NCBI GenBank assembly: GCA_028293825.1
Contig: JAQGNY010000038.1
Coordinates: 1-57,454 of the forward strand
DNA: 57,454 bases
Source of the DNA: Verrucomicrobiaceae bacterium
GTDB lineage: Bacteria > Pseudomonadota > Gammaproteobacteria > Pseudomonadales > CAMLJR01
Reading direction: 5' to 3'
In this document: positions 33,940 through 48,274 of the stretch, piece after piece
Position numbering within the stretch: position 1 is the first letter of the stretch
Layout: every line of letters begins with the position of its first letter
Translations under genes and position numbers: made by a program
The notes under the pieces: model-generated
The model's input: only the letters and a program-made list of their open reading frames with translations
Told to the model about the DNA's origin: nothing
The model's database searches: none

Positions 33940-34614
33940 ATGACCGCATTTATCCTGCAACTGGATGGCAAACCCTTTCCGCACGCACTCGGCAAGATCG
34001 TCTGCGTCGGTCGCAACTACGCGGCGCACGCGGCGGAGCTGAACAATCCGGTGCCGAGCGAACCGCTGCTGTTCATCAAGCCGGCCAGCGCCGCCGCGCA
34101 TTTTAGCGAGCCGGTGCAACTACCGAGCGGACGCGGCTCGGTCCATCACGAACTGGAGATGGCGGTGCTGATCGGTGCGCCGCTGCGCGCGGTTGATGCT
34201 GCTTCCGCCCAACAAGCCATTGCCGGCATCGGTCTGGCGCTGGACCTGACGCTGCGCGAAGTGCAAGACAAACTGAAGCGCGACGCCCATCCGTGGGAGC
34301 GCTCGAAGGCCTTTGACGGCGCCTATCCGGTATCGCAGTTCATCGGCGCCGACGGTCTCGACCTGCACAACCTGACGCTGCAATTGTGGCGCGCCGGCCA
34401 TCTGCAACAGAGCGGCAACACCCGCGACATGCTGTTCGCGGTCAGCGCGCTGATCGCCGAAATCAGCCACAACTTCTCGCTGCAACCCGGCGACATCGTC
34501 TCCACCGGCACCCCCGCCGGCGTCGGCCCGCTGCAAAGCGGCGAATCGCTGATCGCGACCCTCGGTCAACACACGGCCGACGACCTGCTACGGGTGGAAG
34601 CGCGGGTTGCTTAA
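33940..34614 (+). CDS. Fumarylacetoacetate hydrolase family protein
   Basis: A 224-residue FAH-domain enzyme of the short acylpyruvate-hydrolase/YcgM type. Metal ligands are in VHHELEMAVLIG (E-x-E) and ALDLTLREVQ (Asp); the N terminus KIVCVGRNYAAHAAELNN and the C-terminal GDIVSTGTPAGVGPL are diagnostic. Likely cleaves or decarboxylates a beta-diketo acid (such as acylpyruvate or oxaloacetate). It starts three bases after the NRDE stop, so they are co-transcribed. The odd 21-bp array begins 65 bp downstream. Confidence 0.9.
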   Translation: MTAFILQLDGKPFPHALGKIVCVGRNYAAHAAELNNPVPSEPLLFIKPASAAAHFSEPVQLPSGRGSVHHELEMAVLIGAPLRAVDAASAQQAIAGIGLALDLTLREVQDKLKRDAHPWERSKAFDGAYPVSQFIGADGLDLHNLTLQLWRAGHLQQSGNTRDMLFAVSALIAEISHNFSLQPGDIVSTGTPAGVGPLQSGESLIATLGQHTADDLLRVEARVA

Positions 34615-34678: not shown

Positions 34679-35014
34679 AGCTGTAGCTCGTTCAAAGCCA
34701 GGATTAACTATCGCCGAGGTAGCTCGAGCTATAGCGCGCATAGCTCGAGCTTACTTTTTTATAGCTTGAGCTACCTTCGGTATAGATCGAACTATCTAAA
34801 TCAGAGCTCGAGCTAGCAAGAAGATAGAAAAAGCTGTTCCCGAATGAGCTCGAGCTCGCTTCGGCAGAGATCGAGCTAATACGAGCAGAGAAAAAGCTCC
34901 CTCCAAATAAGCTCAAACTAACTCGGAGCGAGCTTGTTCTCTCTTTCGATAAGCTTGTCGTGTCTTTTTGATGAAAGGAGCTTGCTGAAAGGAAGTTCGA
35001 GCTGGGTTTTAGGG
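34679..35014. repeat. Exact 21-bp-period array with palindromic core
   Basis: Sixteen units of exactly 21 bp, starting at 34679 and every 21 bp after it, with no insertions or deletions. The first ten bases are conserved around the palindrome AGCTCGAGCT; the last 11 vary. Exact cores begin at 34721, 34742, 34805 and 34847; one mismatch at 34763, 34868 and 34994; two at 34679, 34784 and 34910. Units at 34826 and 34889 share AGAAAAAGCT. The minus strand stays open over most of the array and would read as Ser-rich heptads (SSSYxxx), but only a TTG could start it. Fills most of the 538-bp gap after the FAH gene; the other bases in that gap show nothing. Confidence 0.8.
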
Positions 35015-35152
35015 AGAGAGAAGCCCTCCTCAATCGAAATCTCCGCCCTTAGGAAATTTCGCTGCTATATTTTTGCGGGCCCAATAAAAACCAACGACCC
35101 GAAATGTGTCATCCCGACACGCCTGGAAAGCAAAAATTAAAAAGGAATTTAG

Positions 35153-35248
35153 ATGTGCCAACCCCCCGCCTTACCGCAAAACAATTTCACTCTTTACAAC
35201 CACGCAAACCATTCCACCAACCTATCAGTCCCTGAAGGAAATATATGA
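35153..35248 (+). CDS. 31-residue leader ORF
   Basis: An ATG with an AAGGA site seven bases upstream opens a 31-codon frame (MCQPPALPQNN ... SVPEGNI). Its TGA overlaps the ATG of the next gene (ATGA), as in coupled leader peptides. The peptide is Asn/Pro/His-rich, with no membrane segment. The downstream gene also has its own GAAGGA inside this ORF. No family recognised. Confidence 0.45.
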   Translation: MCQPPALPQNNFTLYNHANHSTNLSVPEGNI

Positions 35249-35490
35249 GTAACTCATTGGCTTTTGTTGCCTATACCCAGATCGCGCTCTTGCTTTTAAT
35301 GTCCCTACCAATGGCCGTTACGGCATTCAAACTAGCCAGAGAAAAAGGTCGAAATGTACCCCTTTGGACAATAATCGCGTGCATACCCATTCTGAATTTT
35401 ATGTGCATGTGGTACTTCGTTGGTGCCGTGAATTTAAAAACAGAAAGAAAGCTGGATGAGCTGCTCCAGAGATTGAACGGTCAGCAGTAA
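35245..35490 (+). CDS. Small membrane protein
   Basis: An 81-residue protein with two hydrophobic segments (about 8-28 and 40-62) separated by a basic loop KLAREKGRNVPLW, and a charged C-terminal helix (LKTERKLDELLQRLNGQQ). The layout is that of a two-TM inner-membrane protein with the tail in the cytoplasm. GAAGGA precedes the ATG. It is coupled to the upstream leader ORF. Function unknown. Confidence 0.65.
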   Translation: MSNSLAFVAYTQIALLLLMSLPMAVTAFKLAREKGRNVPLWTIIACIPILNFMCMWYFVGAVNLKTERKLDELLQRLNGQQ

Positions 35491-39070: not shown

Positions 39071-42000
39071 TCAATCGGCCACTTTGCGCACCAATTGGAT
39101 ATTGGACAGCGAGCTTTGGCTATCAACATCGGGGTTCACCAAAACCGCCATGTATAAATCGCTGCCGACCACGCGCAATACCGAAGAGGAGCCGCGAGCG
39201 CGAACAATGCTATCCGGGTAGAACTGCGGAATGATGCCGATGCCGGCGCCGATCGGCGCCCAGCCCGCTGCCGTATTGCGTTGCACCACTGGTGCGTTGT
39301 TTAAATCTGGATTCATATCGCTTTCGAGCCACGTCATCACGCCTTCGTCCTGATAAACCGCGAAGCTGGCGATGTAATTGCTGATGTGCGGATTAATTCC
39401 GCCGAGCGGATGGTAGCCGCCGGTGGAGGACCAGGTGCTGCCGTCGTAGCGATAAACCGCCGTGCCGATATTGAAGGTGAAGCCGCCCTCACCGATAACG
39501 CTCGCGAAGAAGCCAATCAGCGGGTTGCCCGCGCTATTGAAGCGCAACTGGGGCCGATACAGACCCATGGTATTGGTCTCCGGCAACACGCCGCCGTTCG
39601 AACCGATGGTCTCCCAAGTCGGCGTTGCCGCCGTCGTCAATCGACGTACCACCGCCTGACCGGCCGGATCAGAGACACCGACCGCCAGCCACAGGCGATT
39701 ACTGGCATCAAAGCGCAAGTCGTAGGACGGCTGGGTGCCACTAGGGCTAAAGGTCGAGTTGCCGGCGACCACATCGCCCCACGCGCTGCCGTTGTAACGC
39801 TGCACGTGAATATCGTTGTTAAAGCGATAGGCCACTACCGGCTGGTCGTCGGTACCGATCTGCACGACCGGGGTTTGATCGCAGCTAGAAGAGGACGCAC
39901 TGGCACCATCGAACGGTAATTTGCCGCTGTTGGGTCCGACACCCTGCCACGCGCCGGCCACATAGCGGCTGACATAGGTCGAACTATTGCCGCTATTAAG
40001 ATACTCGTTGGTGCCGTAGGCAATGACCGGATTGTTGGTGCTATCGAACGCCACCGAAACGGCTTTTTGGGCGCTGCTGCAGGGCCAGTTGATCGCCAGC
40101 TCGCTCGCCACGTCCTCCCACGCTGTGCCGGTCCAGCGTTTGAGCACGACATTATTCGAGTAGTGGTTGCCGGGCACAGTCACAAGATATTGGCGGACGT
40201 AGGCAACCACCGCCTTGCCGTTACGGTCGGTCGTAAGATCGACCAAATCGTTAAAGGATGCGACGGCATTGAGTGGTAAGGCCGGCGCCACTGGCACCCA
40301 GGCCGTCTGCTGTACCGATAATCCAAAGTTCGATGCCACACCGCCGGTCGCGCCGAGCTCGACGGTATAGGTGCCGGCAGCCGGTAGTTCCACGATTTTG
40401 CTCACCAGCCCATAAGCAAGGGACGTTGCGGTATAGACATCCCCGTTGGGGCCGACAATGCGCACATCCGAAGTCTGGCCGAGCTGAGTAACCCCGAAGC
40501 TCACCGCACCAAGGGCGCCGATGGTGAAGCTGCCGCGGTAGGTGGTGAACTCCGGCAATGCCCGAGAGTAAATGCTGATCGGTAACGCCAGTGCCTCGCT
40601 TTGCAAACCACCGAGCATTTCGATTTTGGCGTGGTAGGTGCCGACCGCGCCGGGCGTGCCGGTAATCTCAACCGTGTAAGTACCATCGGCCGGTAAGTTC
40701 TGAATCAACGGCACCGGTGCGTTAGTGTTAACGAAGTTGGCAGTGCCGAGTACCGTCGAACCCTGCAGTAATCGCACTTGCCCCTGCAATGTCGAACCAT
40801 TGCCCGAGGAAACCGTGATCCGGGCATATTTAATGGCCGTGCCAGTGAACGTGAACCGCGCGACCTGATCCGGCTGTAGCGCGCGGGTGTCATCGAATGG
40901 CAGGGTAATCGCTTCTGGCGCGGGGCCGGTCCCGGCTACCGGCCGCAGCTTGATAACTTCCTCAGCCAGCACACCGACTGCGCCGTTGACGACTTTAGTG
41001 CCGGTCCAGGTGCCGTTCAGCACCGCAGCGCTGAGCCGGATATTGACGCCAGCCGGTACTGGAAAGACTTCGCCGCCGGCAATCGCCACTATCTTCCGGC
41101 GCGAAAAGCCGGCCAAGATGGGGTTGGTTGTCGTCGCCAGCTGGCGTCTCGTGCCGCTGCTCGCGGTGGTCCCGTTGCCGCCAAGATCGCGGTCGATTTC
41201 AGCGAGCATGTTGCAGATGGTGGCGGCGTTGAACGTGTCGATTGCCCCCGGAATGCCGATATCGCCGTCATAAATACATTTCGGTTCCGGCCCGTACGGA
41301 TCGAAGCCGAGGTCGGAGTTCCACCAGCTCAAGTGCGTGACGGTCGCGCGCAGCGCCAGACCGCTCGGCGACGCGGTTGATGCTACTACGGTGCCCTCGC
41401 CTTCCTGCACCCAGATGCCAGTGGTTTCATCGAGCGACCACAGCGGTGTGGTCGAGCCGACCGCAAGCACGCTGCCGTCCAGACTTTTGGTCGCATAGAG
41501 AGGAATATCGATGCTCGCGGTTTTACCCGGGGCCAGCTGCAATGCCTGCCCGCCGGCGGTGAGGATATATTCGGTGGTGCCATAACTGACAATCGACACG
41601 GTCGAACCATCGGGCTTGGTGCCGGCAAATTCGCCGGGGAAGCCGCCACCAAAAGGCTGCGTCGGATCGACCGGCGTCATCGCGATATCGACCGGGCCGG
41701 TTACCGCCGTGCCGGTGCTATCGACCAGCGCATTGGCGGGCAAGGTGATCGTCGCGCCATCGCGACCGGTCAATGCACCGCCAGCGGCGGCGTCCGGCAA
41801 GGTTTGCGCCGCATCGCGGGTGCGCATCGTCGCTTCAAAATAAGCATCGGCGCCGACGCTGCTCGGCACTTGCACGCTAAGAACCTGATCGGCGTAACCG
41901 GCCTTGGATAATTTCACCGTCAGCGGCACCCCAACGTTTACTGTCAACGCCACCTTGCCGGTTGAATCGGTGGTGCCGGTTGCACTCGATCCCACTACCG

Positions 42001-42478
42001 CCACGGTGACGCCAGGCAGTGCGGTGCCATCGAGCCCCGTCACCGAACCCTGCGCGGATTTAGTCGCCGGCGCGACTGCCGGCGCGGTAATCGTAATAGT
42101 TTGAGTTTTTGTCGCAGAGAGGCCGGCACTGTCGATCACGGTCAGCTTGACGGTGGTATCGCCAGCAATCGCAAACGAGCGCGCGATAATTTTGCCGCCG
42201 CCGCGCACGCCGCCGAAATCCCACACGTATTGCAACGCGCCGCCATCGGCTGCGGCCGAGGTGCTGGCGTCGAATATCACGGCGGTATTTTGCGCGGCGC
42301 TGGTCGCTGCGGTGAAAGAAGCCGTCGTTACCGTATTAGTTGGCGGCTCTACCGGAGGAGTTACGGGCGGTGTTACCGGTGGCGATTGCGGCGAAGAATC
42401 GGATGAACCACCGCTGTGATGACACGCTATTAAAGCGACCGAAAAAAACGACAACAACAAATAGCGTGCATACCGCAT
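39071..42478 (-). CDS. Giant multidomain surface lipoprotein
   Basis: A 1135-residue lipoprotein (lipobox ALIAC, Cys19), probably at the outer membrane. A Pro/Thr linker (PPVTPPVTPPVEPP) leads to a PKD-like domain (about 50-135), a carboxypeptidase-regulatory-like Ig domain (about 138-215), a ZU5-like segment with TITLPANALVDSTGTAVTGP, and a pre-peptidase C-like domain (about 545-630). The C terminus (about 750-1135) repeats a motif of the type RWTGTAWEDV / RYVAGAWQGVG / RYNGSAWGDVV, suggesting a beta-propeller. No catalytic motif seen. It may bind surface glycans or partners. GC is higher than in neighbours. Confidence 0.8.
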   Translation of the reverse strand: MRYARYLLLSFFSVALIACHHSGGSSDSSPQSPPVTPPVTPPVEPPTNTVTTASFTAATSAAQNTAVIFDASTSAAADGGALQYVWDFGGVRGGGKIIARSFAIAGDTTVKLTVIDSAGLSATKTQTITITAPAVAPATKSAQGSVTGLDGTALPGVTVAVVGSSATGTTDSTGKVALTVNVGVPLTVKLSKAGYADQVLSVQVPSSVGADAYFEATMRTRDAAQTLPDAAAGGALTGRDGATITLPANALVDSTGTAVTGPVDIAMTPVDPTQPFGGGFPGEFAGTKPDGSTVSIVSYGTTEYILTAGGQALQLAPGKTASIDIPLYATKSLDGSVLAVGSTTPLWSLDETTGIWVQEGEGTVVASTASPSGLALRATVTHLSWWNSDLGFDPYGPEPKCIYDGDIGIPGAIDTFNAATICNMLAEIDRDLGGNGTTASSGTRRQLATTTNPILAGFSRRKIVAIAGGEVFPVPAGVNIRLSAAVLNGTWTGTKVVNGAVGVLAEEVIKLRPVAGTGPAPEAITLPFDDTRALQPDQVARFTFTGTAIKYARITVSSGNGSTLQGQVRLLQGSTVLGTANFVNTNAPVPLIQNLPADGTYTVEITGTPGAVGTYHAKIEMLGGLQSEALALPISIYSRALPEFTTYRGSFTIGALGAVSFGVTQLGQTSDVRIVGPNGDVYTATSLAYGLVSKIVELPAAGTYTVELGATGGVASNFGLSVQQTAWVPVAPALPLNAVASFNDLVDLTTDRNGKAVVAYVRQYLVTVPGNHYSNNVVLKRWTGTAWEDVASELAINWPCSSAQKAVSVAFDSTNNPVIAYGTNEYLNSGNSSTYVSRYVAGAWQGVGPNSGKLPFDGASASSSSCDQTPVVQIGTDDQPVVAYRFNNDIHVQRYNGSAWGDVVAGNSTFSPSGTQPSYDLRFDASNRLWLAVGVSDPAGQAVVRRLTTAATPTWETIGSNGGVLPETNTMGLYRPQLRFNSAGNPLIGFFASVIGEGGFTFNIGTAVYRYDGSTWSSTGGYHPLGGINPHISNYIASFAVYQDEGVMTWLESDMNPDLNNAPVVQRNTAAGWAPIGAGIGIIPQFYPDSIVRARGSSSVLRVVGSDLYMAVLVNPDVDSQSSLSNIQLVRKVAD

Positions 42479-48089: not shown

Positions 48090-48269
48090 GAAAGAGCCCC
48101 GAGATACCGCTGGCGGCATGGCCCTTGAACCCAGCGGTTCAAGGTGGCGGCTTCTGCAGTGTTTCAGGCTTTCCGACGAGCGGACATGCACACCAACACC
48201 AACGAGAAACCCCCAGTTTGTTTACTTATCGGCTCAGGGGTCTTAACCGCCTGGCGCATATCTCAGGGA
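48090..48269 (-). ncRNA. ssrS: 6S RNA
   Basis: About 180 nt between zapA and fau, the classic gammaproteobacterial position. Closing stem: CCCTGAGATATG at the 5' end pairs with GGTATCTCGGGG at the 3' end. Conserved blocks shared with E. coli 6S are CCCCTGAGCCGATA, GTGCATGTCCG, CGGAAAGCCT and ACCTTGAACC-CTGGGTTCAAGGG. The molecule mimics an open promoter and binds sigma-70 RNA polymerase in stationary phase. 5' and 3' ends are estimated to a few bases. Confidence 0.93.
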
Positions 48270-48274
48270 CGTCG

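Follow-up and report, generated by a model that had tools for sequence, protein, structure and literature searches.

Sixteen units of exactly 21 bp, most of them opening with a variant of the same palindrome, stand between two open reading frames in a 57,454-nucleotide stretch of contig JAQGNY010000038.1 (assembly GCA_028293825.1), which as a whole is called the window below. Such a locus raises the question of what keeps so regular a spacing in a sequence whose letters vary so much: a protein that reads the units, an RNA, a gene for a heptad-repeat protein, or simply the way in which the repeat multiplies. The features of the locus to which the text refers are the following.

33940 to 34614, plus strand: fumarylacetoacetate hydrolase family gene, upstream, with its stop 65 bp before the array
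34679 to 35014, no strand assigned: array of 16 units of 21 bp, each with a 10-bp dyad core and an 11-bp part with a second weak dyad
34704 to 35033, minus strand: Ser-rich 109-aa ORF with a TTG start and no Pfam match, judged not to be a gene
34721 to 34783, no strand assigned: three near-perfect cores in succession, including a hairpin (34721-34751) that resembles a terminator and precedes TACTTTTTT
34826 to 34898, plus strand: variant cores AGAAAAAGCT at 34826 and 34889
35245 to 35490, plus strand: 81-aa ORF, downstream, without a Pfam match, 231 bp past the array

Structure of the array in the window

The phase is unbroken across the 16 consecutive units from 34679 to 35014, and the absence of any indel in 336 bp, claimed by an earlier reading of the sequence alone, stands. 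Mean autocorrelation at lags of 21, 42, 63 and 84 reached 0.493 against 0.249 in 1000 dinucleotide shuffles (sd 0.014, maximum 0.29; z = 17.9), well above every shuffle, so that the check which the same reading had proposed upholds its exact 21-bp period. The highest-ranking lags were 21 and its multiples as far as 126, and the best period between 8 and 39 never exceeded 0.307 in 200 shuffles. Tandem Repeats Finder at its default score leaves the array out of its output because the units are merely about 47-49% identical to one another.

The core words of the array are AGCTCGAGCT, AGATCGAGCT and AGAAAAAGCT, and the 11-bp part resembles ATCTCCGAGAT. Eleven of the 16 units match AGCTCGAGCT at seven or more of ten positions (1.5% in shuffles) and four cores are perfect palindromes. 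Two related arrays, C19 and C40, have the A-rich variant AGAAAAAGCT as their majority core. When 88 units from six arrays are combined, the majority consensus reads AGCTCGAGCT then ATCTCCGAGAT, with A1, G2, A7, C9 and T10 each above 90%; the 11 bases once taken as variable are therefore non-random. They hold a second weak dyad (ATCTCCGAGAT), and dyads thus recur every 10.5 bp. A higher-order 63-bp pattern had also been suspected. It does not stand out in the window array, whose lags of 21, 42, 63 and 84 all lie at 0.48-0.50, and is present in another array of the genome, at C55:107049-107400 (L323:7049-7400), which has a 63-bp higher-order unit with GGTTCTA...AGAAC(C/T) at every third 21-bp unit (L323 7133-7322).

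Elsewhere in the window, the only Rfam match at gathering score is a 6S RNA (RF00013, 113.5 bits; 48092-48272, minus strand), and an 1135-aa ORF (39071-42478, minus strand) carries PKD and carboxypeptidase-regulatory-like domains.

Distribution of 21-bp arrays in the genome

Searches of the genome, as had been recommended, revealed arrays of the same pitch at about 20 places in the 4.34 Mb (56 contigs) of this genome, a count which adds up several searches and two 400-kb samples; the window array is therefore a member of a dispersed repeat family. Six places have the AGCTCGAGCT core, three are divergent, ten are copies or pieces of an element called F3 and two have other sequences. Blast and pattern searches gave five further strong arrays, on contigs C11, C18, C19, C40 and C45. 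A 63-nt profile of sequence alone matched weakly at C52 near 36.7k and C39 near 69.5k, and these matches, together with a blast match of the C40 array at C18 near 42.6k, led to the three divergent arrays. A 105-nt profile trained on nine arrays then matched C34 and C21 (E 0.03-0.05), where the consensus differs (GAGGATnTCCTC and CTTTTT).

A period scan of every period from 8 to 63, covering 20 samples of 20 kb and the window, passed 21 and its multiples alone at the first threshold and added two arrays with other consensus words, at C55:107k and C11:37k; a lower threshold gave a C34-like array at C55:396k and single matches of periods 30, 39, 51 and 57. The second 400-kb sample, scanned at an intermediate threshold below which the C55:396k array also falls, held no clear 21-bp array; its matches were a coding 42-nt coiled coil and periods 9, 15, 24 and 30. 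The word AGCTCGAGCT does not occur in the 800 kb sampled.

Unit identity across the arrays is about 40-67%. F1 units (AGCTCGAGCT+ATCTCCGAGAT) are about 50-65% alike and keep phase over 12-17 units, adjacent units are identical in places, as in C40, and a single break in phase occurs among the arrays, in C11 near 70966. When F1 arrays were aligned to each other no offset was strongly preferred (highest z 3.1), and the window array is thus not a recent copy of another. Comparison of the flanks of nine arrays gave nothing strong in common except one inverted 54-bp stretch, 85% identical, which lies outside the arrays in the flanks of L058 and L059 (about C18:131750 and C19:112500) and is perhaps another dispersed repeat.

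Fourteen arrays were placed between the longest non-overlapping ORFs. ORFs sharing more than 60 bp with an array were ignored in this placement, and the label intergenic therefore depends on judging them to be chance. Several genes near arrays deserve mention in their own right: a CAP12/Pycsar-type TIR protein gene adjoins the C18 array (L058:2962-3804, minus strand); a SrpI-like type 2A encapsulin shell gene (L059:729-1661, plus strand) lies near the C19 array beside a class-V aminotransferase gene; and upstream of the C11b array an 864-aa ORF (L338:13731-16325, plus strand) combines two stretches of radical-SAM type with a CofH/MqnC region at its C terminus and may be an FO synthase fusion serving cofactor F420.

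The F3 element

Three arrays (C34, C21 and C55b) align end to end, with identity at the best offset of 0.67-0.72 against a mean over offsets of 0.47-0.49. Searching with the C21 copy located this F3 element at ten places in the genome it comes from. Four of these places lie close to or at the ends of contigs and may thus be pieces of the same copies; the count leaves out C21:204824-204940, which matches the gene flank of the query rather than the array. The same search in 36 other genomes gave nothing better than E 0.004. MITEs are bounded by terminal inverted repeats and a target-site duplication; F3 copies begin near TACCTACCTC, C34 ends near GAGGTAGGTA and the 3' ends vary.

Nine aligned copies share a mean pairwise identity of 0.80 (0.66-0.91). 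Substitutions between them number at least 125, whereas the internal gaps form just three blocks, one of 84 columns and two of 21, or 13 gaps when counted by row; F3 has gained or lost whole modules. Beyond this alignment there are a 3-nt gap near the 3' end and, in one copy, a 1-nt insertion in a G-run. With the C11 break, these make the phase less than absolute.

Coding capacity of the arrays

Since 21 bp is seven codons, the arrays might encode heptad-repeat proteins or be the decayed remains of their genes. Five of 15 array segments (C11, C40, C18b, C21 and C11b) do have at least one stop-free frame, and several arrays are overlapped by ORFs of 81-206 aa. Moreover, ten of 90 frame tests had fewer stops than column shuffles at P<0.05, with one more at 0.05, where 4-5 were expected; these tests include a Ser-rich plus frame in C36, C11 and C18b (C18 at 0.05) and one minus frame in C36, C19 and C40. 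These low stop counts weigh against a non-coding reading; we do not take them as coding because column shuffles also destroy the preferences of neighbouring bases.

Against genes stand the other ten segments, stopped in all six frames, and the lack of any frame open across the arrays. The most conserved bases would fall partly on third codon positions, none of 11 array-overlapping ORFs (81-206 aa) matched Pfam, and codon phase left no bias among the F3 copies (P 0.10). The genome does contain a real coiled-coil gene, at C18:237k, and it looks different: one of its frames runs without a stop for 166 codons, and the other frames have 3-12 stops. The Ser-rich minus-strand ORF of the window, with its TTG start and no Pfam match, is accordingly best seen as a by-product of the period, as had been proposed.

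RNA structure and DNA shape

The unit consensus shows more dyad symmetry than permutation of its columns would give in all but two of 15 array segments, C55a and C11b (P 0.016 or less in the other 13), F1 segments being related and the tests thus fewer than 15 independent ones. Symmetric units could be read as DNA or could fold as RNA, and the sequence-only reading had allowed for units that pair with one another in a transcript. Part of the evidence favours such a transcript. In 20 of 22 tests the fold of the native array was more stable than that of its column shuffles, most strongly in C34 (z -4.65) and C52 (z -4.2). Among 11 pairs tested around CTCNGAG, the one that lies five bases to each side covaries over 108 sites with one mismatch allowed (z 4.5) and less so at the 23 exact sites (z 2.2), and the core-centred dyad of C39 covaries with z 3.0, the highest among 42 centres in each of 11 arrays.

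Other results count against RNA. Covariation within units is absent at nearly all dyad pairs, including the neighbouring pairs at four and six bases from CTCNGAG; shuffling the order of units barely alters the fold energy (z -1.95 to 1.05); and the fold effect is present on both strands. The extra stability may come partly from repeated unit types, which leaves an RNA reading possible. Rfam gave no match on the window array, and a search at E 0.5 that covered this array together with four F3 loci returned one, at the 3' end of one F3 copy, with 25.9 bits against a gathering score of 58.8. Terminator-like sites occur at chance level, with one in the window region (1.3 expected) and none at one F3 locus (0.9 expected). 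At the loci scanned, known structured RNAs and intrinsic terminators thus find no support as identities for the arrays.

As for the shape of the DNA itself, the strongest harmonic of AA/TT steps falls at 10.5 bp (8.4, with 7.2 at 21), which makes simple intrinsic curvature possible, although WW, TA, GC and SS steps have no peak there.

Comparison with related genomes

A single congener, G001, was available among the relatives, and it is not a very close one, its G+C being 0.63 against 0.53 in samples of the present genome. Two gene pairs nevertheless permit a comparison of sites. The facing UDG-family and HDOD genes are 3 bp apart in G001 and 574 bp apart, with an array between them, in the present genome; matched stretches of DUF1289 and MiaE are separated by 39 bp in the former and 779 bp in the latter. 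G001 is therefore without array DNA at two orthologous gene pairs. The site of another array, between fliR and flhB, is uninformative because G001 has an SBF-type transporter gene there, and around the window array the hydrolase gene alone matches G001.

A period scan of G001 (212,605 readable of 219,669 bases taken) gave one period-21 match, L349, rejected as an array since it is the NAD(P) transhydrogenase beta-subunit gene, and 400 kb from five other genomes of the order gave none. With query R1, only the present genome matched at E 1e-3 among 56 relatives, at most 95 first-look candidates being scored per genome; against G001 alone at E 10 there were two weak matches (best E 0.046). Query R2 matched three of 390 genomes of the order at 1e-4, the present one, G115 and G071, the last two being by eye a near-identical tandem repeat and an alanine-rich, coding-like sequence; ten candidates were scored per genome, so that this is weak evidence of absence elsewhere. 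No plasmid homologues appeared at E 1e-5.

Look-alikes in other phyla

A pattern of four successive core-like words 21 bp apart matched at least 115 loci in genome contigs and 76 in viral contigs. Most of the higher-scoring ones inspected among the matches listed were open frames or tandem repeats with near-identical units. For 186 of the 191 loci we scored the 11-mer, which the pattern had not selected (mean -4.4, sd 3.3), and four outliers emerged at 4.5-6.7. L096, from Treponema MAG Cc175_bin57, reads AGATTAATCT AGCTCGGAGCT, has stops in all six frames and a mean identity of 0.73, and lies downstream of an ORF recognised by eye as dnaJ-like. L175, from Spirochaetaceae MAG Ncb351_bin45, reads AGAATAATCT CCCTCCGAGCT with a mean identity of 0.82 and two frames with one stop each. 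The third of these outliers is a short array in a Deltaproteobacteria MAG; the fourth, L170, was set aside because one stop-free frame makes it look coding.

L096 and L175 share with the arrays described here the 21-bp period, the division into a 10-mer and an 11-mer and a second half of CTCNGAG type; they differ in their more homogeneous units. Homology and convergence may either of them account for the Spirochaete look-alikes. The sequence-only reading had placed similar repeats in some Firmicutes; this was not confirmed among the matches listed, where the look-alikes belong to Spirochaete and Deltaproteobacteria MAGs. In the MAG of L096 another locus, L160, proved to be an ordinary repeat of identical units. 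Two contigs of Treponema MAG Kf353_bin92 carry related arrays, L115 and L167 (AGAATTAGCT AAGAATGAGTC and AGAATTAGCT GCGAGCGACTC), in which one frame has a single stop and none, respectively, and coding is possible there.

Relation to known repeats

Most of the intergenic repeats known from bacteria are short palindromes clustered in small numbers, such as REP/BIME (PMC2817692), and REP palindromes as tabulated measure about 20-40 nt, mostly start with GTAG, are separated by variable lengths and usually exceed 100 copies (PMC2817692; PMC3116915). The REP, BIME and REPIN elements linked to RAYT transposases are likewise extragenic, palindromic, dispersed and modular, with several classes per genome (PMC2817692; PMC3116915). 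The arrays of the present genome differ from the REP/BIME so described in having dyads of 10 and 11 bp at a fixed 21-bp pitch and units about 40-67% identical; the places found so far number about 20. The F1 unit is AGCTCGAGCT+ATCTCCGAGAT and not a REP; F3 does include GTAGG, but inside 21-bp modules; and the pitch is constant apart from the C11 break, in place of the variable spacing of REPs.

Other repeats come to mind as well. BOX elements of pneumococcus are dispersed and modular with a variable number of internal modules; their module length and sequence differ, and they have no helical pitch. Overall, the arrays somewhat resemble REP/BIME and BOX elements as dispersed intergenic modules but depart from REPs in unit and spacing. 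In MetJ operator arrays and ArgR boxes, dimers or hexamers read degenerate palindromes repeated in tandem with a helical spacing, which for ARG boxes is about 21 bp from centre to centre; such operators consist of few units at particular promoters, as opposed to 12-17 units at many intergenic places here. CRISPR arrays have near-identical direct repeats and unique spacers of about 30 bp, whereas neighbouring units here are 41-67% identical with a period of 21 bp, and a coiled-coil gene is set aside since no single open frame is common to the members. The literature searched, as far as its text was accessible, contained no 21-bp intergenic dyad arrays.

Origin and possible role of the arrays

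We regard the arrays as a dispersed, modular, apparently non-coding intergenic repeat, and tentatively, at a probability of about 0.4, as helix-phased arrays for a dimeric DNA-binding protein. The dyad symmetry of 13 segments out of 15, the maintained phase and the recurrence of the same pitch at dispersed places support the phased array proposed from the letters alone; the dimeric protein is what we infer from them. The building block is a 21-bp module carrying two dyads 10.5 bp apart and, since 21 bp makes two turns of B-DNA, all dyads would face one side of the helix, an arrangement that selection against phase shifts would maintain. The most likely reason would be cooperative binding by a dimeric or oligomerising protein along the array, with possible roles in organising the nucleoid or in silencing or insulating intergenic DNA. 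Modules would multiply by unequal exchange or slippage, and elements of the F3 type would in addition be copied to new places. Mostly absent covariation fits half-sites read by a dimer; the CTCNGAG covariation and the stable folds are unpredicted by a pure protein-site model.

Next in order comes a selfish or neutral satellite-like repeat, a possibility that we take seriously while ranking it lower, in which slippage or unequal exchange would multiply units, a transposition-like process would spread F3, and the constant 21 bp would reflect whole-unit amplification and not a cellular function. The ten F3 places in one genome, with nothing better than E 0.004 in 36 others, also fit a purely selfish element, and whole-unit gap blocks, identical neighbours as in C40 and the two G001 sites free of arrays point the same way. 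Such a repeat explains less readily why F1 units only 50-65% alike stay in phase over 12-17 units and why dyad symmetry recurs among arrays distinct in sequence. Unconstrained drift is expected to leave many small indels, an expectation that comes from the general bacterial ratio of substitutions to indels and is uncalibrated for these arrays. Third in order, and unlikely given the scarce covariation and the indifference to unit order, is a transcribed array whose units fold as hairpins and serve as 3'-end stabiliser, terminator cluster or regulatory RNA. A partition or replication site, parC-like or iteron-like, left by a plasmid is very improbable: such loci typically have phased tandem sites, but these arrays occupy about 20 separate places in one genome, and no par or rep family appears among the Pfam-searched ORFs flanking six of them. 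Given their stops in most segments, heptad-repeat genes are scarcely credible.

Beyond the preferred reading of sites for a dimeric protein, a more far-reaching proposal, which we consider doubtful, would make the arrays a new kind of element of chromosomal architecture, built of 21-bp double-dyad modules. A predicted protein would polymerise over them on a single helical face and serve to organise the nucleoid or to silence, with exchange of modules by whole turns and independent appearance in distant phyla, including termite-gut spirochaetes.

Several families in one genome thus follow a common rule, an exact two-turn pitch with dyads, kept despite the drift of the letters. The Spirochaete look-alikes open this rule to testing in other genomes. 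If no protein reads the arrays, they would offer a clean case of bacterial satellite-like DNA evolving in whole 21-bp steps; if one does, they would belong to an unrecognised chromosome-organising or silencing system and provide an easily assayed target for it.
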